Source of the DNA: Bacteroidota bacterium
Lineage (GTDB): Bacteria; Bacteroidota; Bacteroidia; AKYH767-A; OLB10
Direction of reading: 5' to 3'
Length of the DNA: 42,622 nucleotides
Assembly (NCBI GenBank): GCA_963169675.1
Contig: CAUJFJ010000032.1
Span: 1-42,622 of the forward strand
The notes beneath the pieces were generated by a model. That model was not told the origin of the DNA. It was given only the letters and a program-made list of their open reading frames with translations, and made no database searches. A program made the translations under genes and the position numbers. Shown here piece by piece: positions 1,608-35,781 of this stretch (position 1 is the first letter of the stretch; every line of letters begins with the position of its first letter).

Positions 1608-1626
1608 TCTATAAACACAGTCGTTT

Positions 1627-6327: not shown

Positions 6328-6345
6328 CCGATTAATAACTTCGGT

Positions 6346-6381
6346 AAAAAGGGCTCCTCTTATTTAAGAGGAGCCCTTTTT
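6346..6381. terminator. Rho-independent terminator (symmetrical A/T flanks)
   Basis: Inverted repeat AAAAAGGGCTCCTCTTA-TT-TAAGAGGAGCCCTTTTT after the 1891-6327 CDS. Confidence 0.85.
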
Positions 6382-6580
6382 GTTTGATTTCCAGTATTTT
6401 ATAAGTTGTGAGAGTCTGGCTACGATTCCAGACAAATATAGTTTCGCTTTTATATTTTTTTTTCTTTGTCTTACTGTTAAGGAAACCTTTTCCATGAGTC
6501 CCCGTTGAATTGCTCTGAAAATCAGCATTCATTGATCTGCCCCTGATCAAATTCTGGAACTTCAAACTTAAATAAAGATC

Positions 6581-11038: not shown

Positions 11039-11058
11039 TTAAAAGATAAAGAATTATC

Positions 11059-13949: not shown

Positions 13950-15113
13950 TCAATTTTTAGGAGGAAGCAAAGAAGCCAGGGCAACGAACATCCAGGCATT
14001 TGACCACCTCATGAAAGAAGGCTTTTCAGTGAATTGAGCATATTTCCTGAAATAAAAATACCCTTTGGGATCTTGCATAGTTCTGATCATGTAACTGGCA
14101 ACATTGGTGGCAATCTCTGTTTGATCAAATCGGGTTAATGTTAGAATGCTCTGACCTGCTGCTGTGCAATCGACAGGGAAAGTTTTATTGCTGAAAAATT
14201 TAGGTATTTCATTATTTTCAAAGAATGTATTCAAATAGTATTTAAAACCATTTGCAAGGTGATTTGAAAAGGAATTGTCATTGGTGCAAATTTGAAATTC
14301 ATGAAAGCAATCCAATACATATCCTGTATGATAATTGTCAATCCATTCCCCTTTATTCATAGCAGCATATTTCCAGGAACCGTCGATTTGTTGTTGGTTT
14401 GCTACATAGGTTGCTGCCAGCTTCGCAGGATGCAACAGTTTTTCATCTTTGGTAATACTGTATACCTGAGAAAGTAATCTGACCCCTTTCATACTGGCAT
14501 TGAATACCTGTTGTGTATCAAATGGAGAATAGGAAAAGCAAAAAGTTCCGTCCTCATAATGAGTTCTTTTTATATCATTGAGCACAAAAAGAGAAGCGCT
14601 TTTGCATAGATCACCCACTGATGCATCTTTAGTGAAGCAATAGTATTTAAAAAGTGCATTTGTTATAAATCCTGTAGCAACAATGGTTGGCTGATATGCG
14701 GGAATTTTAGCATATCTCGATTCCCAATCGAAGTCGTATCCCCAACAGGCGCCGTGAAATCCTTTCGGAATCATTTCAGTAAGTTTTGAAATGAGCGGGT
14801 TGCATTTTTTTTCTAACTCGCTTTTAGAAAGTAAATTCTTTTCACCCATAATGGTGTAGGCCTGAATACAAAGACCTAATGTAACCGGATTTAAACCTTT
14901 TTTTATTAAGAGTATAGGTCTTAAATTCAAAGGTGATCTTTTTACAAGTTGTTGCAGGCCAAATCTGAGCAACTTGCTACTCCGAAGAAGCGGTACATTA
15001 ACCAACGGGGATTTTAGAGCATCATAAGGATCATAGCCATGATAATTTTCTGCTTCAATATATTGCTGTAATTTATAAAATGCTTCTACTGCATTTGTTG
15101 CTTCCTGTTGCAT
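13950..15113 (-). CDS. Alpha/alpha-toroid-like protein of an exopolysaccharide locus (function unknown)
   Basis: Predominantly helical repeats with aromatic/Gly motifs 'WGYDFDWESR', 'DGSWKYAA..GEWIDNYHTGYVLDCFHEF', 'FMRWSNAWMF' typical of (alpha/alpha)6 toroid glycan-acting folds. Confidence 0.6.
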   Translation of the reverse strand: MQQEATNAVEAFYKLQQYIEAENYHGYDPYDALKSPLVNVPLLRSSKLLRFGLQQLVKRSPLNLRPILLIKKGLNPVTLGLCIQAYTIMGEKNLLSKSELEKKCNPLISKLTEMIPKGFHGACWGYDFDWESRYAKIPAYQPTIVATGFITNALFKYYCFTKDASVGDLCKSASLFVLNDIKRTHYEDGTFCFSYSPFDTQQVFNASMKGVRLLSQVYSITKDEKLLHPAKLAATYVANQQQIDGSWKYAAMNKGEWIDNYHTGYVLDCFHEFQICTNDNSFSNHLANGFKYYLNTFFENNEIPKFFSNKTFPVDCTAAGQSILTLTRFDQTEIATNVASYMIRTMQDPKGYFYFRKYAQFTEKPSFMRWSNAWMFVALASLLPPKN

Positions 15114-15115
15114 CT

Positions 15116-17257
15116 TTATAATGTGATTCTTTCTCCTTGTAATGCAATAGATCGTAATGCTTTGAATGTGGCATCGAAAGTGATGTATTGTTCTTCAAAC
15201 GGAACAGGGCATTCTTTACCGGTTTCTATATTCTTCAGAAAATTGGTTACTTCCGAATTGTGTCCTTTATCTATGCCTTTTACATTTTTTGTTACAGCCG
15301 TTTTTCCATAAATTTTTAAACTGCTGAAATCATCAATGATTCCAATTCTGCCTGCAAAGAAAACTTCCAGATATTCTTTAGGAAGGTCTTTATTTCCATT
15401 GGAGAAATAAGAAATATTCGCAATGCTGCCATTTTCGAAATGAAGATTAATAGTAACTGTATCATTATTGTTATTGGTGTCAGGCATTGCAACGGCACTT
15501 ACTGATATGATTTTGGAGCCCGTAAGATGCATTGCCAGATCTATAAAATGACATGCTTCTCCAATGATTCTTCCGCCACCAATTTTTTTATCGTGAATCC
15601 AGTGGTCGGCAGGTACTATACCTGCATTGATTCTGTAATTTATGCTTACCGGGGTTTTACCTGCTGATTCAATGGTGTTTTTTAGAGACACCACCAATGG
15701 AGAAAATCGTCTGTTGAATCCAACCATTAATGACTTTCCGGATTTTTGGTAAATTTCTTTGATAGATTCAAGTTCTTCTTCATTCATACAAAGTGGTTTT
15801 TCTACAAAAACATTTTTACCACTTTTCAATCCTTTAATTACATATTCTGCGTGAGAGTCGTGACGTGTTGCTATAAATATTGTATTTATCTCTGCATCAT
15901 TAAGAATTTCATCCGGATTTCCGGTGCATAATGAGAAATTGTATTTGTCTGCAAGATTTCTGGCATTTGCTGGTCGTGCCGTTGCTATTCCTTTTAGTTT
16001 TCCGGAGTCTCCAATTGCCGGTAGCAGGAAGTTTTGTGCGAAATTTCCGGCACCTATAAAACCGATTACTGGTTTATTTCCTGTGGATGGTGTATTTGTT
16101 GGGATTTGTTTTCGAACCGATCTTGCAATTTCTTTGCTGATATCGTAATTTAATACTATGGCCTGAAAAGGTTCACTTCTGGACACAACCAAATCATAAG
16201 CTTTGATAGAATCTGAGAAGGGGAACCGATGTGTAATTAGTGGATCAATATTGATTTTTCCTGAACGAATCAACTCGAGAAATGCACCCATATTCCTGTT
16301 TTCTGTCCACCTTACATATCCAAAAGGATAGTCAATACCTTTTTCTTCATAGGCACTGTCATAGCGGCCCGGTCCATAAGAACAAGACATTCTCAAATCA
16401 AGTTCTTTTCTAAAATAGTTGGTTCTCTTAAATCCGGTAGGAACTGCTCCTACAACTACTACTTTTCCCTTTTGTTTACATATCTCTCCAGAAAAATCAA
16501 TAGGGTCGGTAGATGACGATCCGGCAGTAATTATTACCGCATCAACACCATATCCATCAGTAAGTGATTCTATCGCTTGTGTAAGTCCTTCATTGCCTCT
16601 TAAGAAAGCCATGTCAGCTCCATTTTTTAAAGCTGTTTCTATCTGTTTCGGATCAATATCAATACCAACAGTTCGTACTCCTGAGGCATGTAACATTTGA
16701 AGTGTTAATTGACCGATCAAACCTAAGCCTATTACAGCTGCTGTTTCTCCAAGGCGTAAATCGGCTTGTCTGATTCCTTGTAATGCGATTGCGCCCAAAG
16801 TGGCTAGTGAAGCGTGCTCTGTTGATACATTGTTCGGTATTTTGACAGCTAGATTTTTTGGAATAGCAACCACTTCTGCGTGATTTGCTGAATTTCCTCC
16901 GCATGCTACCAAATCACCAATACGGAATTCAGTAACATCTGGTGCAACTTCTATTACTTCGCCTGCACTGCAATATCCAAGTGGAGTAGGGGCATCCAGC
17001 TTATTCATCACCATCCGGTAAGTGTTCATTATACCGAATGTTTTAGCTGTCTGAATTACTTTCTTAACCTCATCTTTTCTTGCTCGGGCTTTACCTATAT
17101 ATCCTAATCGGGCATCCTTTACAGTCTTTCCTTCAGTACCGGCACTTATAAGAGAAAAATAATTTCTTACCAGTATGCAGCCATTGTTTAAAGCCGGGAA
17201 AGGAACCTCAAGTAATGTCATTTTACCATCTTTCAGGTTTTGGGTTATTTGTTCCAT
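15116..17257 (-). CDS. Fused zinc-type alcohol dehydrogenase / Gfo-Idh-MocA family oxidoreductase
   Basis: N-terminal MDR half ('PLGYCSAGEVIEVAPDVTEFRIGDLVACGG', 'AAVIGLGLIGQLTLQMLHASGVRTVGIDID'); C-terminal half 'KPVIGFIGAGNFAQNFLLPAI...HDSHAEYVIKGLKSGKNVFVEKPLCMNEEEL' is canonical Gfo/Idh/MocA. Confidence 0.9.
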   Translation of the reverse strand: MEQITQNLKDGKMTLLEVPFPALNNGCILVRNYFSLISAGTEGKTVKDARLGYIGKARARKDEVKKVIQTAKTFGIMNTYRMVMNKLDAPTPLGYCSAGEVIEVAPDVTEFRIGDLVACGGNSANHAEVVAIPKNLAVKIPNNVSTEHASLATLGAIALQGIRQADLRLGETAAVIGLGLIGQLTLQMLHASGVRTVGIDIDPKQIETALKNGADMAFLRGNEGLTQAIESLTDGYGVDAVIITAGSSSTDPIDFSGEICKQKGKVVVVGAVPTGFKRTNYFRKELDLRMSCSYGPGRYDSAYEEKGIDYPFGYVRWTENRNMGAFLELIRSGKINIDPLITHRFPFSDSIKAYDLVVSRSEPFQAIVLNYDISKEIARSVRKQIPTNTPSTGNKPVIGFIGAGNFAQNFLLPAIGDSGKLKGIATARPANARNLADKYNFSLCTGNPDEILNDAEINTIFIATRHDSHAEYVIKGLKSGKNVFVEKPLCMNEEELESIKEIYQKSGKSLMVGFNRRFSPLVVSLKNTIESAGKTPVSINYRINAGIVPADHWIHDKKIGGGRIIGEACHFIDLAMHLTGSKIISVSAVAMPDTNNNNDTVTINLHFENGSIANISYFSNGNKDLPKEYLEVFFAGRIGIIDDFSSLKIYGKTAVTKNVKGIDKGHNSEVTNFLKNIETGKECPVPFEEQYITFDATFKALRSIALQGERITL

Positions 17258-17262
17258 TAGCC

Positions 17263-18375
17263 TTAATTTTTATTGTCAATTACATCCATGAATGCATCTG
17301 TGAAATTCTGCACCATTTTTGTTTCAGTGAATTTTTGTTTATACAGTTCGCGACTCTTTTTACCCATCGATATTCTCAGGCCGCTGTCAGATATCAATTG
17401 TTTAGCCCTTTCAGCTATTTCAACAGGAGAGCTGGGCTTAACTATGAAACCATTTACCTGATCAATTACTGATTCAATGATCGCTCCTTTATCTGTAGAA
17501 ATTACCGGAAGTCCCGAAGCCATTGCCTCTACAATGACCCAAGGATGTCCCTCAGGTTCCCGTGGTGTAAATATGAATAAATCGCTTTTTAAAAGGTATT
17601 CAAATTTATTTTTGCTTACAGAAGAACTATAAAACGTCACGGGCAAATTTTCTTTTTGAATAATTGCCAGACATTTTTCTTTGGTTTCATTTTTTCGCCA
17701 TTCGCCAATGATATCCATAACAAATGTTCCGGGTTGTTCTCTTTGAAGAATAGTGATCGCATCTATTACGTCTTCTATTCCTTTAGAGGACTGAAGATTG
17801 GCAAGATAAATAAGCTTAACAGGGTAGTCAGTGTTATATTGATGTTCCGGAATATGGTAGTTTCCTCCATTCGGAACAACATAAATTCTATGTTCCGGAA
17901 AAAAGTCACGAAACAAATATTTTAAATTATGCCCAAGTACTATTACACCTTTAGGTATTTTGAGTGTGAAAGCAACAAACATACGGGTGGAAGATGAAGC
18001 ATTGTCAAGCCATCTTTTAAAATCACTACCCCTAAGTTGAATCATTACTTTGCTTCTGCATAGAAAGCAGATGTATAGAAATACCGAATCTTTTAAAAAA
18101 CCAAGAGTTGCCTGGCTGATTGGTATTAATACAATATCAGGTCGTTTAGTAAGTAGTATTTTTATGAGCTTAAAATAAATAGATAAATTGGTAATTACTT
18201 TTTTGATGCTGAATTTTCCCAGAGTAGCCAGTGTTTCATTAGCTTTAACATCGAGATACAATAGCTCAAAATTGTCTTTTAATCCAGAATTTATCAGAAT
18301 TTCAAATGCCACCGATGGACCCATGTATGGTGGAGGTAGTTTTCCTAGTATAAGCAGCTTTTTCTTATTGCTCAT
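17263..18375 (-). CDS. Glycosyltransferase family 4 protein
   Basis: 'GKLPPPYMGPSVAFEILINSG' N-terminus; 'FIFTPREPEGHPWVIVEAMASGLPVISTDKGAIIESVIDQVNGFIVKPSSPVEIAE' GT-B C-terminal motif. Confidence 0.9.
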   Translation of the reverse strand: MSNKKKLLILGKLPPPYMGPSVAFEILINSGLKDNFELLYLDVKANETLATLGKFSIKKVITNLSIYFKLIKILLTKRPDIVLIPISQATLGFLKDSVFLYICFLCRSKVMIQLRGSDFKRWLDNASSSTRMFVAFTLKIPKGVIVLGHNLKYLFRDFFPEHRIYVVPNGGNYHIPEHQYNTDYPVKLIYLANLQSSKGIEDVIDAITILQREQPGTFVMDIIGEWRKNETKEKCLAIIQKENLPVTFYSSSVSKNKFEYLLKSDLFIFTPREPEGHPWVIVEAMASGLPVISTDKGAIIESVIDQVNGFIVKPSSPVEIAERAKQLISDSGLRISMGKKSRELYKQKFTETKMVQNFTDAFMDVIDNKN

Positions 18376-19633
18376 TTTTTTCTTTCATTGCTTCTACAGG
18401 TAATGCCAACATACACATTATCGGTATGAAAACATACATAAGTGGTGGATACAATAATGGTGTGGTACTAATGGAATATAAAGCTATAATTGCTAGTGCG
18501 CCCACTCCAAGAAATTGCATCGACATGGAATATCGGAGTAGTCGTACTCCAACGTTTAAGAGCAACATAATATAAAGGAAAAGTCCAATGAATCCAATAC
18601 TCATTAGAATTCTTATGAAGTCATTGTGTGATCCTTTCGAAATGTACATGTAAGGAACATTTAATGATAGGGGTAATCCAAAAAACTGGACAAAAGTGTT
18701 TTTTTCAAAGAAGTAATCCAGGAATGAATTCCACCTTCCAACACGGCCATGGAATAACATGTCATTGTCTTTTTCTCCTTCGTAAACCTTTATGTCTGTC
18801 TCAATCAATGGCATTACCTTTTCATCAATGGCATCTTGTCCAAGAAAATAGATCATTCCTGCTGCCATTCCAATGAAAGCTAGTCCGAATATGGCATTTC
18901 TTCGGAAGTTGTAAAACAGGAATAGGATCATGATAACACCTACTACTGCATAGGAAGCTGTGTGGTGAATATTAAATAGAATTGCTGTTGATACAATAAA
19001 TGCAAAAGCAAGTAAAGATGTTTTTTTAGTAGCAGTTGCAGGAGTATCTTTTACCAAAAAGGAATAACAGAATATTAATAAACCAACCGACATATAAATG
19101 GCGTAGTTCATGACATCCGAAAAATTTCCCTGGAATCTTTCAAATCCCCGGCTTATCTGGACATTGATTGGCTGAAATACAATTTCATAACCAAATGAAA
19201 GCACAACAAATATTGTGGAGTAAATGAATGACTGAAGCACTCCATACAAATCACGCTTACTGTGAATAAGTGTTCTTGTGAAAAAATACATATAACACAT
19301 GAATCCCATTTTTAAACTGAATTCAATTGCATCTAATGAAAATGCATCACTAACCAGCAATGCAACACATGAAATTCCGGTTATCAATGAAAAAATGCCC
19401 ATGTAGGTATCAAGCCGAGAATAATTGGGCTTTTTCATAACTATGGCAGCATAAATAGCGAAAAAAGGTGTTAGTACTCCTACGATGTAATTCGGTGAGA
19501 GAAAAGGAGAGAATTCTTTCAGGTAGTAAAAATTATCAATGATTGGCCTTAGTAATACTAAGAACACAAACCATCTGATAGAAATTGGTAGATCCCTGAC
19601 CCATGCCCGCCAGTCACTGAAAGTCATTAACAT
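18365..19633 (-). CDS. O-antigen polymerase/ligase-like (Wzy-type) membrane protein
   Basis: About ten hydrophobic helices with a large extracytoplasmic loop ('GRVGRWNSFLDYFFEKN...YISKGSHNDFIRILMSIGFIGLFLYI'); overlaps the adjacent GT gene by 11 nt. Confidence 0.8.
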   Translation of the reverse strand: MLMTFSDWRAWVRDLPISIRWFVFLVLLRPIIDNFYYLKEFSPFLSPNYIVGVLTPFFAIYAAIVMKKPNYSRLDTYMGIFSLITGISCVALLVSDAFSLDAIEFSLKMGFMCYMYFFTRTLIHSKRDLYGVLQSFIYSTIFVVLSFGYEIVFQPINVQISRGFERFQGNFSDVMNYAIYMSVGLLIFCYSFLVKDTPATATKKTSLLAFAFIVSTAILFNIHHTASYAVVGVIMILFLFYNFRRNAIFGLAFIGMAAGMIYFLGQDAIDEKVMPLIETDIKVYEGEKDNDMLFHGRVGRWNSFLDYFFEKNTFVQFFGLPLSLNVPYMYISKGSHNDFIRILMSIGFIGLFLYIMLLLNVGVRLLRYSMSMQFLGVGALAIIALYSISTTPLLYPPLMYVFIPIMCMLALPVEAMKEKNEQ

Positions 19634-19727: not shown

Positions 19728-20867
19728 CTATTTTTCAGCCGGTTTTGAAATTGCATCGGTATAAACCTGAAAAATTCTTTCTTCCATTTTTTGGATGGTA
19801 TAATCCGCTGCCAGGTTCATTCTTCTGGTTATCAATTCTTTATCCTTAGAATTGCGGTTTTTGTAGTAGTAATTCAATCTGCTACAGAGTTGTTGTTCAT
19901 CCTCAACAATGTCTTCATTGAACTCATTTTCAACTATTTCAAGCATGCCCCCGGCATCCTTAAATACGATGGTAGGCTTTCCAAGTCCAAGTGTTTCAAC
20001 GGCTACTAATCCAAAAGCCTCATTTTGTGAAGAAAACACACACACATCCATTGAATTTTGGTACGATCTCACAGCCGATTGAAATCCTGTCAGCAAGGTT
20101 TTTGACTGAATATCTTGATCCTTAACCCACATTTCGATCTGATTTTTCAGAATTCCATCTCCAACAAGCATTAATACAACATCGTTTTTATCTTTGGCAA
20201 ATAAGGCAAATCCTTGAATCAGTCTGTCTATTCGTTTTACTCCTACAAAACGTGATGATGTTCCAACCACAAATTTATCTGCAATAAAGTCCCGGTGATT
20301 TTTGTCGGGAATCATTTCCGTGTTTGAAGAATTCTCGAGAAATATACCGTTAGGAATAATAACGCCCTTGATTTTGCCAGTATTAAAGAGACGGTCGGAT
20401 AATTGTTTTGAAAACCTGGAATTGTAAGTGATGTATGAAGTGAATGCAGGCAAAATAAGTTTGCTCAGAAATTGATTTATACTGTCTGTAATTCTTTTTT
20501 TTCTTCCAAAGAAAAAATTTCCATGAACCGTATAGATTATCTTTTTGCCTGACAATCCAGCCATGAGGTAAACTATGGGATTGAAGGTATGTATGTGGAT
20601 GATATCGGCTTCGATGAACTTGTTGCGAAGCAATTTTAATATAGATGGTCGGACGTCATTTCCGTTTTTCATTCCAACGAAAGTGTGGGTTAATCCGGTT
20701 TCATTGAGTTTATCAATGAAATTACCTTTACGGCATCCAATTAGTATTTGTGTCTCTAAACGGACATTCGATCGCTGGGCCAGCGATAAATCCATTACCA
20801 GTTTTTCGATCCCTCCGAAGTTAGCGGACCAAATATAATGGACGACAACAAGTTTGTTGTTTTTCAA
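19728..20867 (-). CDS. Glycosyltransferase family 4/1 protein
   Basis: 'VHYIWSANFGGIEKLVMDLS' and 'VCVFSSQNEAFGLVAVETLGLGKPTIVFKDAGGMLEIV' GT-B motifs. Confidence 0.88.
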   Translation of the reverse strand: MKNNKLVVVHYIWSANFGGIEKLVMDLSLAQRSNVRLETQILIGCRKGNFIDKLNETGLTHTFVGMKNGNDVRPSILKLLRNKFIEADIIHIHTFNPIVYLMAGLSGKKIIYTVHGNFFFGRKKRITDSINQFLSKLILPAFTSYITYNSRFSKQLSDRLFNTGKIKGVIIPNGIFLENSSNTEMIPDKNHRDFIADKFVVGTSSRFVGVKRIDRLIQGFALFAKDKNDVVLMLVGDGILKNQIEMWVKDQDIQSKTLLTGFQSAVRSYQNSMDVCVFSSQNEAFGLVAVETLGLGKPTIVFKDAGGMLEIVENEFNEDIVEDEQQLCSRLNYYYKNRNSKDKELITRRMNLAADYTIQKMEERIFQVYTDAISKPAEK

Positions 20868-20877
20868 ATTGATTCAG

Positions 20878-21855
20878 TTAGGAAAATATATTTAATGGGA
20901 ATCCACCGCATATGAATGATGGCAGATGTTGTTTATTGTATTTTAGAGCTTCTCCGAAGATTTGATGACGGTTTTGAAGTATTGAATTGGCTTCAGTTCT
21001 GACAGCAGATTTTTTTATTGTTACTTGATAATTATTCAATCTGTTATTTATTTTTCTTAAGACTGAAAATTTGTTTGAAAGTAATGGGGGAATTGATATG
21101 CCATTGGAGTTGATAGACATTTTATCCCCCGACTGAACAGTTATACTCTTTGCAATCTTGTGGACCTTGTTATCCATATAAAATCCATTTTCATCAATGG
21201 CCTTATTTATCGTATTTTCAAGTTGCTTATAATACAGTAAAGTAAGTTCTATAAGTTTTTGCTTTTGGAACGGGCTGTTGAAAAAGTTATCTCTGACTTT
21301 CATGAGCTCTTGCAAGGTAATGTTTAGAGGTTCATTTACCAAGTTGAGAAATCTCAAATCTGTTTGCAATGCTTTAGCATGAAGTAGAATCCCTCTTACT
21401 TTAATATTTTTTTGTGTAATATTGAGATGAATGCTGATCCATGCTTTGACCAGGTATTCAAGAGCAATCTGGTGTTCCAGATGAGTTCTGTCCGATTCTG
21501 AAAGTGTATAACTGGTAAGGTTTACCGATTCTCCTCCCTGTAGTTTGAAATTTCCAAAAAAAGTAAATTTCTCCATTTTTAAAGCCAACGATTCCGATGT
21601 ACCAAAGAGATTGTGGCAAAAAAGGTAACGGTCACTTGAAGAGATGTCTGCAACCGGGTTTTCATTACAAATGAAGCCATCTTTAAAAACAATGTAATAA
21701 TCAATATCGGAGATCCCGGGTGTGTTTATACCACCTACCTGAAAAATTGACTTCACTCCCGAAATACGAAGCAGCTTTTCGGTCATGCGATTCAAGCAGC
21801 TTTCGTATTCTGAACGGTCAACAGGTTTAGGTATGTCTGATAAATTATAACTCAT
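20878..21855 (-). CDS. Nucleotidyltransferase-fold-like protein, second of an adjacent pair
   Basis: N-terminal 'FQVGGINTPGISDIDYYIVF' resembles the Pol-beta superfamily GG..(7)..DxD motif; overlaps the upstream gene by 11 nt. Confidence 0.5.
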   Translation of the reverse strand: MSYNLSDIPKPVDRSEYESCLNRMTEKLLRISGVKSIFQVGGINTPGISDIDYYIVFKDGFICNENPVADISSSDRYLFCHNLFGTSESLALKMEKFTFFGNFKLQGGESVNLTSYTLSESDRTHLEHQIALEYLVKAWISIHLNITQKNIKVRGILLHAKALQTDLRFLNLVNEPLNITLQELMKVRDNFFNSPFQKQKLIELTLLYYKQLENTINKAIDENGFYMDNKVHKIAKSITVQSGDKMSINSNGISIPPLLSNKFSVLRKINNRLNNYQVTIKKSAVRTEANSILQNRHQIFGEALKYNKQHLPSFICGGFPLNIFS

Positions 21856-22849
21856 TTGATTTCTTTAGCATAGTTTGAGCCAGTAGATTCATTTGCTGAA
21901 GCAAACCTTTTTGGAAGGCCTGTAAAGTATCACCGGATAGTGAACCGGATGATTTTATTAGTTTACTTTTCAATTGTGAAGTAACAATGACCGGAGGACT
22001 AAATGGTAAGTTGTTTGTTGGTCGGGTCCAATTTAATCTTAATTGAGAGACAGTTCTCATAGGAAGCCATTCTTCATCACTAAAATGAGATGCTGCCTTT
22101 TCAAAGCTAAATTTTTTGAAAATTCCTTCACCCGTAATTTTTTGGATAAACAGTGTAGGGAGTAACATGAATTCACTTAGTAAATTTTTGACTTCATAAT
22201 TATTCGCAGGAATTCGACCTGTTGATGTTTTCTTAACAATGGAATTTACCAGGTTTTCAAGAGATCGTGAAGATTTGAAGTTGTAGTGACTTGCGTTGAT
22301 CTCAAGGTTTAAATTTCCATAAAGAGATTTAGAATGTTTTAATAGTTCTCTTGGAAAATAGTAATCGGGAAATTCTGTTAATTCATGTTCCAAAATTATA
22401 AACCAACTGTGATGCTGAAGATTATCATAGGCAAACATCAGTGAAAAGGATCTGCTTATTTTGATTGCAGTTTGTATCAGTTTGTTTTTATCCTTAAAAG
22501 TATCATTTTTTAAAATCAGCAATCCATCGAAGTCGCTATATTCTATTTCTTCATTTGTGCCTATGCTTCCATGAATCAATGCTGCAACTAAATTATCATG
22601 TAATTCCGATTGAACATACTCAGTAATTCGTTTGACCTCAGAATTGTGTGAGATTAATGGATCTATATGAAAACTCTCTGACTGAGAATATAGAGGTTTG
22701 TTTAATGAATTAAATGCAGTAATTATTGCACCTGCATTTTTGTAAAAAGGTATTTGGTTATTTGCGTAAGAAAGTAGTTTGTCGCCGGATGAAATGCAAC
22801 CATCTGTCAGATAGCGAACAAGCATTGTTCTGAAAGCGTGCATTTCCAT
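21845..22849 (-). CDS. Nucleotidyltransferase-superfamily protein, first of an adjacent pair
   Basis: 'LVAALIHGSIGTNEEIEYSDFDGLLIL' fits the minimal NTase signature hGS-x(10)-DhD-h. Confidence 0.65.
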   Translation of the reverse strand: MEMHAFRTMLVRYLTDGCISSGDKLLSYANNQIPFYKNAGAIITAFNSLNKPLYSQSESFHIDPLISHNSEVKRITEYVQSELHDNLVAALIHGSIGTNEEIEYSDFDGLLILKNDTFKDKNKLIQTAIKISRSFSLMFAYDNLQHHSWFIILEHELTEFPDYYFPRELLKHSKSLYGNLNLEINASHYNFKSSRSLENLVNSIVKKTSTGRIPANNYEVKNLLSEFMLLPTLFIQKITGEGIFKKFSFEKAASHFSDEEWLPMRTVSQLRLNWTRPTNNLPFSPPVIVTSQLKSKLIKSSGSLSGDTLQAFQKGLLQQMNLLAQTMLKKSNEL

Positions 22850-22861
22850 TTCTGTAATAGA

Positions 22862-24007
22862 TTATTTCTTCTTAAATACAGCTAAAACTGCGCTGGGACC
22901 ATACTTGGCTGACATTTTACCCAATGTTGAAAGAACTATTTCGTCGGTTGCGGAAAGCATGTTGATTACAAATTTTTGCAGCATGATTTTCCTTGAAATA
23001 TTCTTGATCAGGGTTTCAATCATTGTTCTTAATGCTGAAATCTGGTACTTTACTGAAACAGGATGAAAGTTTATTTCAGCCATTAATTTTGTAATTTCAG
23101 CCAGATCTATTTTGCCATCATGTTCACTATGTTCGTAGGTTGTCATGGCTTTTTTCAGACTTTCCATCCCGGGAACATTAAGAGTTGGTCGGTTTATAGG
23201 TTCGTGAAATGCAAAGTATCCTCCGGGAATAATCAGGTTATGACATTCTTTAACAGCATCAGACGGTCTTGGAAGATGATGAAGCATTCCAAAACTGATT
23301 ATAGCTTCAAATGATTCCGGTTTGAATGGAAGGTTTAAAGCACTTGTTTGGATAAAATCACCTGTGGGAATTGCTTGTTTCGCTACCAGCAATCTTTTGA
23401 ATGAAATATCGGTTCCAATGTAGTTGTAGCTATTTTTTCCCGGATCAAAATTGTAGGATATGGTTCTGGAGTTACCTGAACCAATTTCCAGCATAAATTT
23501 ATTTTTAATATGATTTGAAATCAGGTCAATGATGTATTTTTTTCTGGGCAGAAATATTCTCCAAATAGGTTTGTTTTTAATTTCCTGCAACATTTTGTTT
23601 CGCTGATCATCGGAACTTACTTCTTTATCGTAATATTTCATTTCCTCTCTGTTCCATTTTCCATCAAAAGTATCTGCTGTTTTTTGCAATCGTGTGAGTG
23701 TTTCTGCAGTAATTTCTTTGTATGGAGAGGGAAGTGCCGGGAGCATTGATTCGAGGAGACTGCAATGATGATTCGTGTCAACATCCAAATCATTTAGGAG
23801 TATGGCAACGGCCCCACTAATTGGATAAGCTGTTCTCCCTTCTTCAGCAATTAACACACCTTCCAGAATGTCATCTTCATTATGAATTTCAGAATCAATC
23901 AGATTTGTAATGATCTGGTTGTTTCGCGAAACACTAATGCCAAATACCTTGAACTTAACTGTGCGGTTGTTAGGATCACGTAATAAAGGAATTATTTTTT
24001 TTCTCAT
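22862..24007 (-). CDS. Class I SAM-dependent methyltransferase with Trm112-like N-terminal segment
   Basis: 'FMLEIGSGNSRTISYNF..NSYNYIGTDISFKRL' motif I/II, 'FEAIISFGMLHHLPRPSDAVKECHNLIIPGGYFAFHEP'; N-terminus 'ILEGVLIAEEGRTAYPISGAVAILL' resembles a Trm112-like element. Confidence 0.85.
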   Translation of the reverse strand: MRKKIIPLLRDPNNRTVKFKVFGISVSRNNQIITNLIDSEIHNEDDILEGVLIAEEGRTAYPISGAVAILLNDLDVDTNHHCSLLESMLPALPSPYKEITAETLTRLQKTADTFDGKWNREEMKYYDKEVSSDDQRNKMLQEIKNKPIWRIFLPRKKYIIDLISNHIKNKFMLEIGSGNSRTISYNFDPGKNSYNYIGTDISFKRLLVAKQAIPTGDFIQTSALNLPFKPESFEAIISFGMLHHLPRPSDAVKECHNLIIPGGYFAFHEPINRPTLNVPGMESLKKAMTTYEHSEHDGKIDLAEITKLMAEINFHPVSVKYQISALRTMIETLIKNISRKIMLQKFVINMLSATDEIVLSTLGKMSAKYGPSAVLAVFKKK

Positions 24008-24140: not shown

Positions 24141-25514
24141 CTAATGATTTAAGCTATTTTCTGTGTCAGGAATGTTAGCTGTTCCCATTTTATGCTCATC
24201 AGAATCGAGCTTTTTCAGTGCATAGTATATGAAAAATCCGGGCATAATAACATTCATCAATATCATTGTGAATGCCATACCATCTGATCCATATTTTGGA
24301 ATCAGAAAATAGGCTGTAGTCAGGCCTGTTATAAAGCCTATTATAGATACTTTTAGTCTCAAATATACCAGATCAATAGCCTGTAATAAGGGCTGAATCC
24401 AGAAAAACATTGCATAAATTAAGGAAGCTCCGGTCAGTAAATAGAAGGTGGTACCTGCTTCCAGATACTCTTCTCCAAATGCTGTTTTTATTATCCATTG
24501 GTTGAAAAATATGGCAACAAGCATGAAAATGGTTGCAGGAATTGCGGCCATGGCGGTTAATTTTAAAAGCATCATCCTGATGGACTTAAATTGCTTTTCA
24601 GCATGGAGCTTACAAAGTTGTGGAAAAATGGAGTTTGATAATGGGTCAGTGAGGGTTAGAATAGAAAATGCCAATTTTTTACCGACAGCATAATATGCCG
24701 CCTGTGTTGGACTTGAAGCCAATATCCCAATTAAGAGTACATCTCCATTATTGATTAATGACTGAATTGTTCTGGAAAAGGAATTAGTAATTACAAAAAC
24801 TCTGATTTCTTTGAATTGAGCAGATATAATTGAAATTTTTGCTTTGGTATGTTCACGTAATTCAGGCAAAAGTTCCCTGAACGCAGCAATAGCCGGAATT
24901 GCACCGTTAATAAATCTGGAAAACAAAATGGCAATTAGAAAATAGTGAAGCTCTTTTGGCCATATAAATAAAGCACTGGTTATAAGCGATAATTCAATTA
25001 CATCCATTATCATCTGGATGACAGAATTTACTTTAAACTTGAAATATAGTCTAAGGACACCTCTGCTTATTTGATTAAATAATAAGGCACTGGCCGCAAA
25101 AGTATAAGTAATAGAGAACCACGAAAGACCAGGAGCCTTTATGAAAGTGTCGTAGGTAGTGAATGTTAGAATACTGATAACTGTTACTGAAGCAACAGCA
25201 ATTCCAAGAGTTGCCAGAACACTGATCTTGATCAGAGCAACTAATTTATCCGGTCTGTTTTCTGCTTTAAATTTAGCACCAAACCTGATAATCGCAGTTG
25301 CGAGATTCAGATTCAATACCTCCATCACGGTAGTAATGAATGCAACTATTACTGTATAAATACCAAAAAGTTCGGCACCAAGTCCCCGTGCTATAACAAT
25401 GGCACGTAGAAAGGTAAGGATAACTCCAAAAATATTTGCAAAAAAGACCCATGAACTATTCTTAAATAGTGTTTTGCTTTGGGTGTCGAGTCTTTTACTG
25501 ATAAATTTTTTCAT
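24141..25514 (-). CDS. Polysaccharide flippase (Wzx-like, MATE/PST family)
   Basis: Repeated hydrophobic helices; 'KNSSWVFFANIFGVILTFLRAIVIARGLGAELFGIYTVI' N-terminus typical of PST flippases. Confidence 0.87.
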   Translation of the reverse strand: MKKFISKRLDTQSKTLFKNSSWVFFANIFGVILTFLRAIVIARGLGAELFGIYTVIVAFITTVMEVLNLNLATAIIRFGAKFKAENRPDKLVALIKISVLATLGIAVASVTVISILTFTTYDTFIKAPGLSWFSITYTFAASALLFNQISRGVLRLYFKFKVNSVIQMIMDVIELSLITSALFIWPKELHYFLIAILFSRFINGAIPAIAAFRELLPELREHTKAKISIISAQFKEIRVFVITNSFSRTIQSLINNGDVLLIGILASSPTQAAYYAVGKKLAFSILTLTDPLSNSIFPQLCKLHAEKQFKSIRMMLLKLTAMAAIPATIFMLVAIFFNQWIIKTAFGEEYLEAGTTFYLLTGASLIYAMFFWIQPLLQAIDLVYLRLKVSIIGFITGLTTAYFLIPKYGSDGMAFTMILMNVIMPGFFIYYALKKLDSDEHKMGTANIPDTENSLNH

Positions 25515-25546: not shown

Positions 25547-27967
25547 TCATGAACTTTTTTTGCTTCTTTTTTTACGACGAGATTTTTTGTTGTCCTCCTC
25601 ATAATACCCGTAGCCATATCCGTAACCATAACCATAACCATATCCATAGCCATAGGTCAGTGCATTGGTTTTAACCGCATTGAAAATAACACTCAGATTT
25701 GGAAGTTTATTCTCGTTATAAAGAGTATTAATGAATTCAATGTGTTGCTTCCGTGTAACATTTTGTCTGATAACATAGATGGTAGAATCCACATATTTAC
25801 TCAGCAACATTCCATCTGTTACAACTCCAATAGGAGGGGAGTCAATTATAATGACATCATAATTTGTCTCGAGATAATGGAAGAAATCATCCATTTTTGA
25901 ACTTAGGATGAGCTCAGATGGATTTGGAGGTTTAGGGCCTGATAAAATAATATCCAGGTTTGGTAAAGAAACCGATGGTTGAATAATTTCTTCCATCGAT
26001 GAGACACCGATCAGAAAATTCGAAATTCCAATATCGCTTGGAAGTTTGAATTCTTCATTTTTCTTAGGCTTTCTGAGGTCACCTCCAACCAGAACAACTT
26101 TTTTGCCTGAGATAGCATAAATGGCCGAAAGATTTGCTGCGCAGAAACTTTTACCTTCTGATGAAATAGAAGAGGTAACCAGAATTTTCCTGCATTTGTT
26201 ATTGGCAGCAAAATATTGAAGGTTTGTTCTGATGGAACGGAAAGATTCAGCAATTAATGATTCCGGACGATGTGCAACGATCAGATTGTCGTGTTCATCG
26301 TTGTATCCAACCATTCCTAAAACAGGAATATTTGTGATAGTTTCGAGATCACCGGCATCTTTAATTTTATCGTTCAGTATTTCTTTAATGTAGACAAATG
26401 CAGCGGGCAAAAGAAATCCAAGTAAAATAGCAAAAGTGTAGGTCTGATTGGGAACAGGCTTTACAGGCTTATAAGATGCTCTTGCTTTGTCTACAATTCT
26501 ATTGTCAGAATTGGTAGAGGCCAGAAGGATTGCTGTTTCTGCTTTTTTCTGTAACAGATAGTTATAAAGCCCTTCCCTGATTGTTGCCTGACGTTCCATG
26601 CCTACCAATGCACGTTGAGTTTTTGGAACAGTTTTGATTTTTCCCTGAATTCTTGCCAGTTGAAGTTCGGCCTGTTCTTTAGAAGCATTCAATCCGTTTT
26701 TGATGGATCTGACGTTTTCAAGCAAATCTTCTTTCGTGTTCTGAATTTGAATATTCAGGGAAACAATAATAGGATTATCCGGTTGCGTAGAATTTAATTG
26801 CCCTTTCCGCTGTATCTGCAAATCGCTTAATTGGGTAATAAGTTTTGTAAGCAATGGATCTGCAATACCAAGTGAAGAAGGTGAGATTTTGTCTAAATCT
26901 TTATCTTTTATAATGTACTCTTCCAGATATTTCAAAAATGATAGCTGTATATCAATTTCAGAAATCCTTTCATCATATACTTTTACACTTCCAAGAAATG
27001 CCTGTGCTTCAGTTCCTATATCGGTAATTCCTTTTTCTGTTTTGAACATTTCCAGATCTTCTTCAGATGATTTCAGATCTTCGGTAATCTTATCCAGTTG
27101 TTCATCAATAAACTTCAAAGAGGAAGTAGCATTTTCATTTTTCTGATCGATACCGCTTTGGATAAAAACTTCCAAAAGTGTATTCAGAAAATCGCCAGCC
27201 TTTTGTGGTACAGGATCTTTAAGAGAAAGTTGTAGTACGGTCGATTTTTTACTTACAAAACGAATCGATAAGGCATTGGTATATTTGTCTACGAGGTTGT
27301 CGAAGTTATGAATCGTTGCAACGAAACGACGCTTTTCAAATTCTGCTTTTCTGAAATCAGCATCCCTGAACTTATCTGTTTTTACAATTTTGAATTTACC
27401 AATTTTATTGGTGATTAGATCATCAAACTTGTGTTTTTCACTATATACACCATCATCATTTTTTAAAGAATAGGTAATTTCAAAATTCTTGTCATCAATT
27501 ACGTTGATATTAATTGGTTTTTCAAAAATTCTGAATGATAATGAATCGTATTCAATTTTAATTGGTGATTGCAGGTAAAGCTCAGACCTTTTGACACTTC
27601 CTCTGAGCATGTATGTAATATCGAAATCAAGGCGTCTCAGCGTTTTGCTGATAATTGCTCTTGATTGGATCAGTTCAACATCGTTGTCAATTCCACCTTG
27701 ATTATCAAAGTTGTTTAGTTGAGTCAATAAATCCGATGCAGCCTGATTTCGTTTATCGTCTTTTATGAGAAGTGTACAGGATGCGTTGTATAATGGAGTG
27801 GTGTACCAGTTGTATAAATAGGCACCTGAAAAAGTAAATATCAGACTGATTAGGTATAAGTACCAGTATCTGATTACATTTTTGATTAAGAAATATTTAA
27901 AATTAAACTTTTTCTCGTCCTGTAATTTTGTTTCTTTTTTGTTCTCGTTCATTTCAGGATGGATCAT
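25547..27967 (-). CDS. Polysaccharide co-polymerase / BY-type tyrosine autokinase (Wzc-like)
   Basis: Wzz-like N-terminus with TM segments, long coiled coil, kinase domain 'KILVTSSISSEGKSFCAANLSAIYAISGKKVVLVGGDLRKP' and 'YDVIIIDSPPIGVVTDG', Tyr-rich C-terminus. Confidence 0.92.
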   Translation of the reverse strand: MIHPEMNENKKETKLQDEKKFNFKYFLIKNVIRYWYLYLISLIFTFSGAYLYNWYTTPLYNASCTLLIKDDKRNQAASDLLTQLNNFDNQGGIDNDVELIQSRAIISKTLRRLDFDITYMLRGSVKRSELYLQSPIKIEYDSLSFRIFEKPININVIDDKNFEITYSLKNDDGVYSEKHKFDDLITNKIGKFKIVKTDKFRDADFRKAEFEKRRFVATIHNFDNLVDKYTNALSIRFVSKKSTVLQLSLKDPVPQKAGDFLNTLLEVFIQSGIDQKNENATSSLKFIDEQLDKITEDLKSSEEDLEMFKTEKGITDIGTEAQAFLGSVKVYDERISEIDIQLSFLKYLEEYIIKDKDLDKISPSSLGIADPLLTKLITQLSDLQIQRKGQLNSTQPDNPIIVSLNIQIQNTKEDLLENVRSIKNGLNASKEQAELQLARIQGKIKTVPKTQRALVGMERQATIREGLYNYLLQKKAETAILLASTNSDNRIVDKARASYKPVKPVPNQTYTFAILLGFLLPAAFVYIKEILNDKIKDAGDLETITNIPVLGMVGYNDEHDNLIVAHRPESLIAESFRSIRTNLQYFAANNKCRKILVTSSISSEGKSFCAANLSAIYAISGKKVVLVGGDLRKPKKNEEFKLPSDIGISNFLIGVSSMEEIIQPSVSLPNLDIILSGPKPPNPSELILSSKMDDFFHYLETNYDVIIIDSPPIGVVTDGMLLSKYVDSTIYVIRQNVTRKQHIEFINTLYNENKLPNLSVIFNAVKTNALTYGYGYGYGYGYGYGYGYYEEDNKKSRRKKRSKKSS
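25601..25656 (-). repeat. Imperfect hexanucleotide tandem repeat encoding (Gly-Tyr)n
   Basis: cataatacccgtagccatatccgtaaccataaccataaccatatccatagccatagg encodes YGYGYGYGYGYGYGYGYY on the minus strand. Confidence 0.85.
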
Positions 27968-28758
27968 TCGTTAGTAAATCGGACAACAAGCAGGGTAATA
28001 AGTGTCAAACCACTAATTACAATTGGTGCAATCCTGTAAAAGGCATCGGCAGAAGCAATTCTACCTTTACCGGCTGCAACATAGATTACATCACCGGGTC
28101 TCATGTAATAAAATTCTGATTTGAAAAGATCACGTGTGGTTAAATCTAGCTGATTGAATGTTTTCTTGCCATTCTGATCGCGGATAACCATAACACTTTT
28201 ACGGTCGCCGTAAATGGTCAGATCTCCGGCTAATCCTATAGCATCGGTTAAACTCAGTTTTTCATTTCTCACACTATAAACTCCCGGCACTTTCACTTCA
28301 CCAAGAATAGTTACTTTATAAGATTCAAGGTAAACTCTTACTGTGGGACTTTGAAGAAATTTTTCAAGCTTTTGTCTCAATAACTCTCGTATTTCCCGGG
28401 TTGATAGTCCGGAAACTTTTACTTTTCCTAATAAAGGCATTTCGATTTCGCCATTTGCATCAACTAAATAGTTAGTCATGTCTGTACTTGATGTTCCATC
28501 GGCTTTTTGTGAAGGATTGAAAAAACTGGCAGCCTCTGGATTAATGCTTGCAATGTGAATCCCTAAAATGTCGTTGTGCTCAATTTTAGGCTCGAAAGTG
28601 GGTGGCAACTCAATGGCATCTGCTGATGGCCGGGCATCCGGATCTTTTTGAAAATAATCAACTGCTTTCCTGTTTAAACAGGAACTCATCATAAATAGCA
28701 TAAATAACAACAAAACTATCTTTGGAGTAGTTTGTTTATGTGCAAATGGATTATTCAT
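27964..28758 (-). CDS. Polysaccharide export lipoprotein (Wza-like, SLBB)
   Basis: Lipobox-like 'LLFMLFMMSSCLNRK'; 'HNDILGIHIASINPEA', 'YLVDANGEIEMPLLGKVKVSGLSTREI', 'VTILGEVKVPGVYSVRNEKLSLTDAIGLAGDLTIYGDR'. Confidence 0.93.
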   Translation of the reverse strand: MNNPFAHKQTTPKIVLLLFMLFMMSSCLNRKAVDYFQKDPDARPSADAIELPPTFEPKIEHNDILGIHIASINPEAASFFNPSQKADGTSSTDMTNYLVDANGEIEMPLLGKVKVSGLSTREIRELLRQKLEKFLQSPTVRVYLESYKVTILGEVKVPGVYSVRNEKLSLTDAIGLAGDLTIYGDRKSVMVIRDQNGKKTFNQLDLTTRDLFKSEFYYMRPGDVIYVAAGKGRIASADAFYRIAPIVISGLTLITLLVVRFTNE

Positions 28759-29080: not shown

Positions 29081-30013
29081 ATGATAGCTACAGACACAGA
29101 AAGAGAATTAGAATTTCAAGCCAAAATTGACAGGGGAGAAGTTATCGAACCTAAAGATTGGATGCCCGAAAGATATCGGAAACAATTAATTCGGATGATG
29201 TCGCAACATGCTCATTCAGAGGTTGTTGGAATGCTTCCCGAAGGAAATTGGATAACCAGAGCACCCTCGCTTGCCAGAAAAGCCATCTTACTTGCCAAAG
29301 TTCAGGATGAAGGTGGTCACGGACTTTATATTTACAGCGCGGCAGAAACTCTAGGAATCGACAGAGGTGAAATGATTGATCAGCTTCATACCGGCAAAGC
29401 AAAATATTCGTCTATTTTTAATTATCCAACTTTAAACTGGGCAGATATTGGAGCAATTGGCTGGCTGGTTGATGGGGCCGCAATTGTAAATCAAACTGCA
29501 TTGGCAAAGTGCTCTTATGGTCCGTATTCACGAGCCATGATCCGTATTTGCAAAGAAGAAAATTTCCATCATAAACAAGGTTATCAAATGCTAGCTTATA
29601 TGATGCGTGGTACCAAAGAACAGCAGGAAATGGCTCAGGATGCCATGAACCGTTTCTGGTGGCCCGCATTGATGATGTTTGGTCCTTCAGATACTGATTC
29701 TCCCAATAGTGCTGAACTGATGCGCTGGAAAGTAAAGTTGCATTCGAATGACGATTTAAGACAAAGGTTCATTGATAGAACAGTTCCTCAGGCGGAGGCA
29801 ATCGGTTTGAAAATTCCTGATCCGAAAATGAAGTTTAACGAAACTACACGCCATTATGAACATGGTGAAATTGACTGGCAGGAATTTAAGAATGTAGTTA
29901 GTGGAAATGGTCCATGTAACCGCGAACGTTTACGAGCCAGAGTGAAAGCAGATACAGATGGCAAATGGGTCAGAGATGCTGCAGAAGCTTATGCAAAAAA
30001 GCATATGAACTGA
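29081..30013 (+). CDS. paaA: 1,2-phenylacetyl-CoA epoxidase subunit PaaA
   Basis: '[66 protein letters not shown]' is the characteristic PaaA sequence; followed by paaB, C and D. Confidence 0.97.
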
Positions 30014-30071
30014 TATCAGTCATTTTTTTACCAGGAATCATTAAACACCTTGCACCGTTAAATTTATTATT

Positions 30072-30377
30072 ATGTCAGAATCAAATATCCCCACCAATCA
30101 ATGGAAATTGTGGGAAGTTTTTACACAGAAAAAATCAGGGTTGCCCCATGAACATGCCGGAAGCCTCCGTGCTCCGGATGCAGAAATGGCATTGCTGAAC
30201 GCACGTGATGTGTACAGCAGAAGAAATGAAGCAGTAAGTATCTGGGTGGTTCCATCCGAATGTATGGTATCGTCGACCCCGGAAGATGTCGGTTCTTTTT
30301 TTGATCCGGCAAACGACAAATTATACAGACACCCCAATTTTTATAAAACTCCTGATGGAGTGAAATGGACATCCTGA
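30072..30377 (+). CDS. paaB: 1,2-phenylacetyl-CoA epoxidase subunit PaaB
   Basis: 'WKLWEVFTQKKSGLPHEHAGSLRAPDAEMALLNARDVYSRRNEAVSIWVVPS' typical PaaB; position between paaA and paaC. Confidence 0.96.
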   Translation: MSESNIPTNQWKLWEVFTQKKSGLPHEHAGSLRAPDAEMALLNARDVYSRRNEAVSIWVVPSECMVSSTPEDVGSFFDPANDKLYRHPNFYKTPDGVKWTS

Positions 30378-30390
30378 TCTTCTTATTGCC

Positions 30391-31167
30391 ATGAATACAA
30401 CAACTGAAAAAAATAGTGCCCTCTTTGAATATTTGCTCCGATTGGGCGATACTTCCCTGATTCTTGGACATCGACTCGCTGAATGGTGCGGACATGCTCC
30501 AATTCTGGAAGAGGATATTGCATTGACAAATATTTCACTCGATCATATCGGTCAGGCCAGATTACTACTCGATTATGCCGGAAAAATTGAAGGCAAAGGA
30601 AGAAGCGAAGATGCATTGGCCTATCATAGAGATGCCAGACAATTCCGCAATTTGCTGATGGCAGAACAACCAAATGGTGATTTTGGAAATACTATGGTCA
30701 GACAGTTTTTAATCAGTGTCTATAATTTCCATTTGTATAGTGCTTTGTCTAAAAGTGCTGATGCAGAACTGGCTGCCATTGCTGCTAAATCTGTAAAAGA
30801 AGTTGCCTACCATGTTCGACACAGTAGTGACTGGCTCATTCGTTTAGGCGATGGTACAACAGAAAGTCACGAAAGAGTTCAGCAATCAATTAATGATTTA
30901 TGGATTTATGTTGATGACTTTTTCAATGGTGACGAAGTTGATGTACTGTTGATGAGTCAGAATATTGTACCCGACTTGAATGCGATTCGCCCTCTCTGGA
31001 ATGAAACGGTGCAGCTGACTATGGTAAAAGCTGGACTGCAGATACCACAGGTAAACAGTGCAATGCGTACCGGTAGCAGAAAAGGAAATCATACCGAATA
31101 TTTGGGTTATATTCTGGCTGAAATGCAATTTCTGCCTCGAGCATACCCAGATGCTGAATGGTTGTAA
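30391..31167 (+). CDS. paaC: 1,2-phenylacetyl-CoA epoxidase subunit PaaC
   Basis: 'LGDTSLILGHRLAEWCGHAPILEEDIALTNISLDHIGQARLLLDYAG' typical PaaC. Confidence 0.96.
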   Translation: MNTTTEKNSALFEYLLRLGDTSLILGHRLAEWCGHAPILEEDIALTNISLDHIGQARLLLDYAGKIEGKGRSEDALAYHRDARQFRNLLMAEQPNGDFGNTMVRQFLISVYNFHLYSALSKSADAELAAIAAKSVKEVAYHVRHSSDWLIRLGDGTTESHERVQQSINDLWIYVDDFFNGDEVDVLLMSQNIVPDLNAIRPLWNETVQLTMVKAGLQIPQVNSAMRTGSRKGNHTEYLGYILAEMQFLPRAYPDAEWL

Positions 31168-31181
31168 AATCAGTCCTTCCC

Positions 31182-31682
31182 ATGACTGACACCTCTGATA
31201 TTTCTCACATTCGCAACCTCCTGACTCAGGTTCAGGATCCTGAAGTACCTGTACTTACTATTGCCGATTTAGGCATTTTAAGGAATGTAGAATTTGTGGA
31301 TGGAGTATATGAAATACAAATTACCCCAACTTTCACAGGATGTCCTGCTATGAAAGCCATTGAAGAAAATATTTCAGAAGTATTAGTCGAGAATGGAATC
31401 CAAAATTACAAAGTTAGAATGGTCATGTCACCGGCATGGACCACCGACTGGATTTCTGAGCTTGGCAGAGAAAAATTGAGGAAATACGGTATAGCTCCTC
31501 CATCACAATCTACGGAAGAACACTTAAAGGCCATTCTCACGGGGAAAAATAAAGCGGTCGCATGTCCGTTTTGCGGTTCTGTAAACACTCGGTTAACCAG
31601 CGCTTTTGGTTCGACTGCCTGCAAAGCACTTCACTATTGCGATCATTGCCGCCAACCTTTTGAAGAGTTTAAATGCCATTGA
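31182..31682 (+). CDS. paaD: 1,2-phenylacetyl-CoA epoxidase subunit PaaD
   Basis: 'LLTQVQDPEVPVLTIADLGILRNVEF' DUF59-like domain and C-terminal zinc-ribbon 'CPFCGS..TRLTSAFGSTACKALHYCDHCRQPFEEFKCH'. ATG at 31182 preferred to the ORF-track start at 31158, which overlaps paaC. Confidence 0.94.
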   Translation: MTDTSDISHIRNLLTQVQDPEVPVLTIADLGILRNVEFVDGVYEIQITPTFTGCPAMKAIEENISEVLVENGIQNYKVRMVMSPAWTTDWISELGREKLRKYGIAPPSQSTEEHLKAILTGKNKAVACPFCGSVNTRLTSAFGSTACKALHYCDHCRQPFEEFKCH

Positions 31683-31745
31683 TTGGATCGCTTTTTTGGT
31701 AATTATCTTAGCTTTTTGTTAATTAATTGATTCGATAAATACAGG

Positions 31746-31774
31746 TTGGAATTGCAACTTTTGTTTTAATTTTA
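31746..31774 (+). promoter_or_regulatory. Candidate Bacteroidota promoter for paaG
   Basis: TTG - 18 nt - TAATTTTA, near consensus (-33 TTG / -7 TAnnTTTG), 20 nt before the start codon. Confidence 0.45.
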
Positions 31775-31793
31775 GCCGCAATTAAAAAGATAT

Positions 31794-32567: not shown

Positions 32568-32570
32568 AAT

Positions 32571-35777: not shown

Positions 35778-35781
35778 AATT

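Follow-up and report, generated by a model that had tools for sequence, protein, structure and literature searches.

A near-obligate pair of nucleotidyltransferase-fold genes in surface-polysaccharide loci of Bacteroidota, other bacteria and Woesearchaeota

In the genome of a Bacteroidota bacterium (assembly GCA_963169675.1; 3.87 Mb in 351 contigs), contig CAUJFJ010000032.1 carries a polysaccharide locus in which two overlapping genes encode proteins of the nucleotidyltransferase (NTase) fold. The whole stretch analysed, 42,622 nucleotides (nt) of this contig, is referred to as the window, and the two proteins as NTA (open reading frame (ORF) P0002) and NTB (P0001); a third ORF, P0003, encodes an adjacent methyltransferase. 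In 55 of 57 loci from bacteria and archaea, NTA and NTB were found together, either as neighbours or fused into a single protein, and this pair, not a trio with the methyltransferase, is the robust unit. We propose, with a probability of about 0.42, that NTA and NTB are paralogues of AAD(9)/AadA architecture acting as one unit, which would transfer a nucleotide-derived group to the lipid-linked repeat unit before flipping. The two genes are as follows (aa, amino acids).

21845–22849, minus strand: NTA, 334 aa, core of the unit, with an AAD(9)/AadA-like NTase fold (ORF, AlphaFold2, Foldseek)
20878–21855, minus strand: NTB, 325 aa, second NTase-fold protein, distantly related to NTA (ORF, AlphaFold2, Foldseek, hhalign)

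Pairing, distribution and fusion of NTA and NTB

An earlier note, made from the letters of the window, had described P0003, NTA and NTB as three adjacent minus-strand genes. Their coordinates and strand were as described (381, 334 and 325 aa, respectively), and the reported 11-nt overlap of the NTA and NTB genes was borne out. The distribution of the pair was examined in the window genome and 60 relatives (61 genomes, the relatives set), the closest being metagenome-assembled genomes (MAGs) titled Bacteroidetes or Bacteroidia bacterium, and by a scan in which an alignment of ten sequences was run against 84,980 species genomes. In the relatives set, NTA was present in 31 and NTB in 30 of the 61 genomes, and these were the same genomes. 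The scan returned 39 loci, spanning Bacteroidota, Aminicenantes, Desulfobulbaceae, Gammaproteobacteria, Planctomycetota, two alphaproteobacterial MAGs and Woesearchaeota. Cultured carriers include Splendidivirga corallicola BMA10 (L084) and Lunatimonas salinarum KCTC 42988 (L087). The combined, deduplicated set comprised 57 NTA loci, which are not all independent, as several close relatives are among them.

NTB was a separate nearby gene in 52 of the 57 loci (50 by the automatic map and 2 by six-frame search) and was fused to NTA in 3. One locus ended at a contig edge, with the NTB of that genome on another contig, and in one (L082) NTB was not found. Immediate adjacency was observed in 30 of the 50 separate-gene loci, often with an overlap of 4–29 nt; four Woesearchaeota loci kept the adjacency with NTB on the opposite strand, convergent with NTA. 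The pair is rare overall, the full pair being present in only 2 of 248 genomes drawn from the phylum, the window genome included. No relatives of NTA or NTB were found in a plasmid collection or in viral contigs, and a mobile or phage origin was rejected. A literature search of open-licence papers returned no paper describing the NTA–NTB pair or such genes in Wzx/Wzy loci.

Fused versions were detected in several Bacteroidota. In L088, L089 and L090 (two titled Bacteroidales and one Carboxylicivirga), a single protein of ~610 aa consists of NTA followed by NTB, and three further Bacteroidota encode longer fusions with TPR repeats. A 1141-aa NTA–NTB–TPR protein in L091 (genome G190) is followed by a gene, overlapping by 4 nt, with glycosyltransferase family 9, Glyco_trans_1_2 and family 2 domains; in its close relative L092 (G346) the same chain forms one 2337-aa ORF (4907–11920, minus strand) with NTA, NTB, TPR and several glycosyltransferase domains. 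L093 (G337; 6152–10957, minus strand) encodes a 1601-aa NTA–NTB–TPR protein with a radical-SAM C-terminal part. The order, NTA and then NTB, was constant. These fusions connect the two proteins with one another and with the assembly of glycans. Together with the co-occurrence in relatives and in distant phyla, the glycosyltransferase fusions indicate that both NTase genes are conserved in glycan loci. Radical-SAM/B12 genes were also observed near the pair among the scanned neighbours.

Predicted fold and active-site residues

AlphaFold2 models built from real family alignments had a mean pLDDT of 93.8 and a pTM of 0.90 for NTA, and of 92.5 and 0.90 for NTB. When the models were compared with the PDB by Foldseek, the top match of NTA was the spectinomycin adenylyltransferase AAD(9) (6xz0; E 1.1e-4, probability 1.00), and the weaker, consistent top match of NTB was also AAD(9) (6sxj; E 9e-3, probability 0.96); AadA and LinB ranked after AAD(9) for both. 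The NTase core proposed in the earlier note was therefore found in both proteins. Judged by these predicted models, NTA and NTB are members of the Pol-beta-like NTase fold superfamily, and profile alignment (hhalign probability 88) indicates a distant relationship between the two families.

Curated families gave little purchase on either protein. Neither window protein scored above the cut-off in Pfam or NCBIfam: NTA gave a sub-cut-off Polbeta match in Pfam (E 5e-4), and NTB was recognised by neither library. In family-wide scans, NTP_transf_2 was detected in 30 of 36 NTA members (best 3e-7) and, weakly, in 8 of 33 NTB members, and ANT_9 in 6 of 36 NTA members. By sequence, the NTA profile matched a Streptomycin 3''-adenylyltransferase (E 6e-5). 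Searches of PDB sequences with single NTA or NTB proteins returned noise only, and a viral fold search returned nothing beyond generic nucleotidyltransferases.

AadA binds ATP and magnesium through Ser36, Ser46, Asp47, Asp49 and Glu87 in its NTase domain and through Arg192, Lys205 and Tyr231 in its helical domain, with Glu87 serving as catalytic base (PMC4631478, PMC6065190). The following sites in the window (all minus strand) were compared with these residues.

22565–22570, minus strand: NTA G94-S95 turn, invariant in 36 homologues; Ser95 corresponds by spacing to AadA Ser36 (PMC4631478)
22526–22537, minus strand: NTA S105-D106-F107-D108 metal site; S, D and D invariant, with the spacing of AadA Ser46-Asp47-x-Asp49 (PMC4631478)
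22409–22426, minus strand: NTA D142-N-L-Q-H146-H147 motif, just ahead of strand 3 (residues 149–153); D142, L144, Q145, H146 and H147 invariant
21700–21711, minus strand: NTB S49-D50-I51-D52 metal site; S49, D50 and D52 invariant in 33 homologues
21613–21615, minus strand: NTB H81, just ahead of strand 3, aligned by hhalign with NTA H147; at least 90% conserved

The HGS-x10-DFD signature reported earlier for NTA is present (H93-G94-S95, D106, D108), and G94, S95, S105, D106 and D108 were invariant in the alignment of 36 homologues. The GG-x7-DID motif of NTB (G41-G42, D50, D52) is also present, but the label "degenerate" applies only to its second turn residue, which is variable, and to its loop, which is shorter than that of NTA; G41, S49, D50 and D52 were invariant across 33 homologues, so that both carboxylates never vary. 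Because of this invariance, both motifs are more than chance occurrences, and the strong form of the view that NTB is merely a degenerate copy was ruled out by its invariant SDxD.

NTA and NTB resemble the ANT(9)/ANT(3'')(9) enzymes (AAD(9), AadA) in the combination of NTase and helical domains detected by Foldseek. The S-x9-S-D-x-D spacing of NTA (S95, S105, D106, D108) is identical to that of AadA, and the helical part of NTA contains basic residues, K221 and K245 being invariant and R271 nearly so, which could be counterparts of AadA Arg192/Lys205. Unlike these enzymes, NTA and NTB are paired, lie in glycan loci and lack the catalytic Glu in strand 3; an invariant D-x-L-Q-H-H occurs in NTA instead, and H81 in NTB. 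In both proteins a histidine region seems to take the place of Glu87, judging by spacing and secondary structure. Membership of the ANT(9)/AadA family was ruled out by the differing base position and by the ANT_9 score of NTA, which lay far below the cut-off (16.9 bits versus 340); NTB gave no ANT match. Judging from fold and metal site, both proteins would function as NTases do.

The polysaccharide locus and its variable tailoring genes

The minus strand of the window carries a flippase/polymerase-type polysaccharide locus in the order Wza-like, Wzc-like, Wzx, P0003, NTA, NTB, a family 4 glycosyltransferase (GT4), Wzy-like, GT4, dehydrogenase/MocA fusion, lyase-like and Bac_transf. Apart from NTA and NTB, its genes are:

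27964–28758, minus strand: Wza-like export protein (Poly_export E 1.9e-16)
25547–27967, minus strand: Wzc-like chain-length protein with kinase domain (PRK11519 Wzc E 7e-77; GNVR, AAA_31)
24141–25514, minus strand: Wzx flippase (Polysacc_synt E 2.7e-16)
22862–24007, minus strand: P0003, S-adenosylmethionine (SAM) methyltransferase, 381 aa, with a relic Trm112-like start; an optional tailoring neighbour, outside the core (Methyltransf_11 E 5.8e-18)
19728–20867, minus strand: GT4 glycosyltransferase, directly downstream of NTB (Glycos_transf_1 E 1.3e-23)
18365–19633, minus strand: Wzy-like polymerase (Wzy_C E 3.2e-7, slightly below the Pfam cut-off; cluster present in 24 loci)
17263–18375, minus strand: second GT4 glycosyltransferase (Glycos_transf_1 E 1.7e-27)
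15116–17257, minus strand: alcohol dehydrogenase/GFO-IDH-MocA fusion
13950–15113, minus strand: lyase-like protein (GH88/C5-epimerase-like, weak; only sub-threshold Pfam matches)
12560–13666, minus strand: Bac_transf initial sugar-phosphate transferase (PF02397 E 3.9e-24)

The earlier note had grouped the methyltransferase with NTA and NTB in a three-gene module. A P0003-type methyltransferase adjoined NTA in 6 of the 57 loci (the window and five others), and a full-length P0003 homologue stood beside the pair in few genomes of the relatives set. In L050 and L051 the homologue was located away from the NTA–NTB pair, and other loci carried different tailoring genes. The methyltransferase is thus optional, and the three-gene module was ruled out. 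P0003 does have the Trm112-like N-terminus ascribed to it, although the match is weak (NCBIfam Trm112_arch E 0.005, residues 41–71): its zinc cysteines have been lost from the window copy and most relatives and are kept in L050 (CPNC...CNEC). Genes between or beside the pair encode, in different loci, sulfotransferases, Methyltransf_24 and other methyltransferases, formyltransferase/GINT1-like proteins and asparagine-synthase-like proteins, the last named by sequence reading. The tailoring genes therefore change while the NTA–NTB pair stays.

A glycerol-3-phosphate dehydrogenase gene precedes the P0003-type gene in the five loci other than the window that have the methyltransferase beside NTA. 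Among loci with the methyltransferase type of the window, L023, L024, L060 and L063–L066 have an ABC-transporter flippase and glycerol-3-phosphate dehydrogenase ahead of the methyltransferase; in L066 the dehydrogenase is kept and no ABC gene was recognised. The window differs from these loci in having a Wzx flippase and no glycerol-3-phosphate dehydrogenase. A recurring archaeal protein of ~262–267 aa was observed beside NTB in L074, L075, L076, L078 and L079, with a glycine motif that resembles that of SAM methyltransferases by eye; the two copies scanned (L074, L076) gave no Pfam match.

The view that NTases are foreign to loci of this kind proved too strong. In L054, an Aminicenantes MAG, an uncharacterised nucleotidyltransferase gene of the NTP_transf_5 family (PF14907; 8664–9812, plus strand) lies directly upstream of NTA, and LicD-type NTases occur in other capsules (PMC11666461). 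NTP_transf_5 is alike in being an NTase-like gene within a polysaccharide locus but is a separate gene in L054, and neither NTA nor NTB matched PF14907.

Of the 41 loci with a recognised flippase, 29 had it on the same strand and at most three genes upstream; it was either of the Wzx or of the unrelated ABC type. Tree distances of NTA and NTB were correlated (0.70, n=46); among closer bacteria the correlation was 0.44, versus 0.12 and 0.21 with Wzx.

Outside the locus, the plus strand at 29081–33743 encodes phenylacetate-degradation proteins (PaaA, PaaC, PaaD, enoyl-CoA hydratase and 3-hydroxyacyl-CoA dehydrogenase) from genes next to Wza that run in the opposite direction, away from it. In several relatives (for example L019, L023, L024, L038 and L042–L044) the polysaccharide locus is bordered by Paa genes of the same clusters, and this border is thus conserved. 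At 21–11038 (plus strand) the window encodes large secreted proteins, including two adjacent ones of ~1480 aa; the products scanned, at 21–1607 and 1891–6327, have PKD-like domains and a type IX secretion sorting tail. Two adjacent paralogues of 584 and 587 aa lie at 34023–37545 (minus strand), and a scan of one of them identified a PAS histidine kinase.

Proposed function and alternative explanations

The proposal builds on the predicted fold, the invariant metal dyads, the near-obligate pairing, the fusions and the glycan-locus context, from which we infer the complex, its timing, the acceptor, the donor and the product. NTA and NTB, each an NTase plus a helical domain, most likely form a physical hetero-complex, as the fusions and the tree correlation suggest; in the fused versions it would be a single chain. 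On the cytoplasmic side, the unit would attach, in a Mg-dependent reaction, a nucleotide-derived group by a phosphodiester linkage to a hydroxyl on the lipid-linked repeat unit, and the decorated repeat unit would then be moved out by a Wzx or ABC flippase. Catalysis would fall mainly to NTA, and NTB, with its metal dyad kept and its nucleotide-binding turn altered, may provide a second active site or position the substrate. Nearby methyltransferases, sulfotransferases and formyl/GINT1-like enzymes would be interchangeable further decorations. Decoration of the glycan with a phospho- or nucleotidyl-derived group is plausible. The glycan-decorating module of the earlier note is thus upheld in its fold, conservation and glycan-locus membership, but not in counting the methyltransferase as a member.

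Several observations weigh against this proposal. TM-scores of the NTA and NTB models to ANT enzymes are low (≤0.5), and the likeness to AAD(9)/AadA is therefore one of architecture, not of close kinship. Secondary structure and spacing revealed no invariant acid within strand 3 of either protein; candidates for the base are D142 or H146/H147 in NTA and only H81 in NTB. As a carboxylate of the AadA Glu87 type was not seen in strand 3, the chemistry of NTA and NTB may differ from that of AadA. In the wider set, Wzx tracks the same deep split (NTB–Wzx correlation 0.86; partial NTA–NTB correlation given Wzx 0.37). Since the correlation is partly common to Wzx, the tree test is mildly supportive and no proof of NTA–NTB contact. 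The timing before flipping is read solely from gene order and from the fact that no hydrophobic export signal was seen by eye. Moreover, no specific donor-supplying enzyme was constant across NTA loci, and no characterised member of the NTA or NTB family was found.

Tandem NTase domains are also a feature of GlnE, in which two such domains have opposite activities. In a comparable switch, one of NTA and NTB would add, and the other remove, a nucleoside monophosphate on a pathway protein (flippase, glycosyltransferase or Wzc), thereby gating polysaccharide output. GlnE NTase domains (1v4a, 3k7d) and the protein AMPylator DrrA/SidM are indeed among the structure and profile matches of NTA, SidM_N matched 7 of 36 NTA members (L089 at 4.5e-6), and the paired domains occur fused in tandem. 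We consider such a switch unlikely, because the matches to GlnE and DrrA/SidM are weak and the closest folds are small-molecule (aminoglycoside) adenylyltransferases, the gene setting differs, with no glutamine-synthetase or Rab context, and the pair is constant while the flippase type changes between Wzx and ABC. In addition, Wzc was not recognised in the Woesearchaeota loci, and the fusion partners are glycosyltransferases and radical SAM, with no regulators. A division of labour like that of LicC and LicD, in which one protein activates a polyol- or amino-alcohol phosphate as its CDP derivative and its partner attaches the phosphate-bearing group to the glycan, would account for two NTase folds as near-obligate partners. 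In other capsules that later step is carried out by LicD proteins, which are NTase-superfamily enzymes of capsule and glycan decoration (PMC11666461), and glycerol-3-phosphate dehydrogenase lies two genes upstream of NTA in loci with the methyltransferase type of the window (c26). That gene, however, occurs in few loci and is absent from the window, the metal motif of NTA and NTB is of the classical GS...DxD type, unlike that of LicD/fukutin-type phosphotransferases (PF04991), and PF04991 matched none of 69 members (36 NTA and 33 NTB) at E 0.05. Membership of the LicD family was thereby ruled out, and we judge the division of labour improbable as well.

The shortened, non-conserved glycine turn of NTB, the lack of an evident third carboxylate and the fusions to TPR repeats and glycosyltransferases would suit a non-catalytic role for one or both proteins, as a nucleotide-sensing or scaffolding subunit for glycosyltransferases and flippase. 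A scaffold, however, would not need Asp dyads that are invariant in 36 of 36 NTA and 33 of 33 NTB members from bacteria and archaea, and such a role appears quite improbable. The fold and weak sequence likeness to ANT(9), MNT antitoxins and HalB could also suggest that genes for resistance or conflict (of the antibiotic adenylyltransferase, HEPN-MNT-like or CD-NTase kind) sit by chance in surface-glycan loci. We disfavour this view and give it almost no weight, given that NTA and NTB are nearly always in glycan loci, are fused to glycosyltransferases and are missing from the plasmid collection and viral contigs. The matches to defence families did not exceed generic NTase similarity, and a defence system was rejected.

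The proposal of a glycan-decorating NTA–NTB unit can be widened: a heterodimeric or fused NTase machine, shared by bacteria and Woesearchaeota, may place a nucleotide-derived phosphodiester group on lipid-linked oligosaccharides through a His-based active-site variant, across differing flippase-dependent polysaccharides. This wider form is doubtful at present. If true, it would represent a kind of surface-glycan modification that has not been described before. In several bacterial phyla and in Woesearchaeota, two families outside the curated libraries used emerge as near-obligate partners within surface-polysaccharide loci. Two unassigned genes thereby become one testable unit, which hints at a glycan step missed by current polysaccharide annotation.

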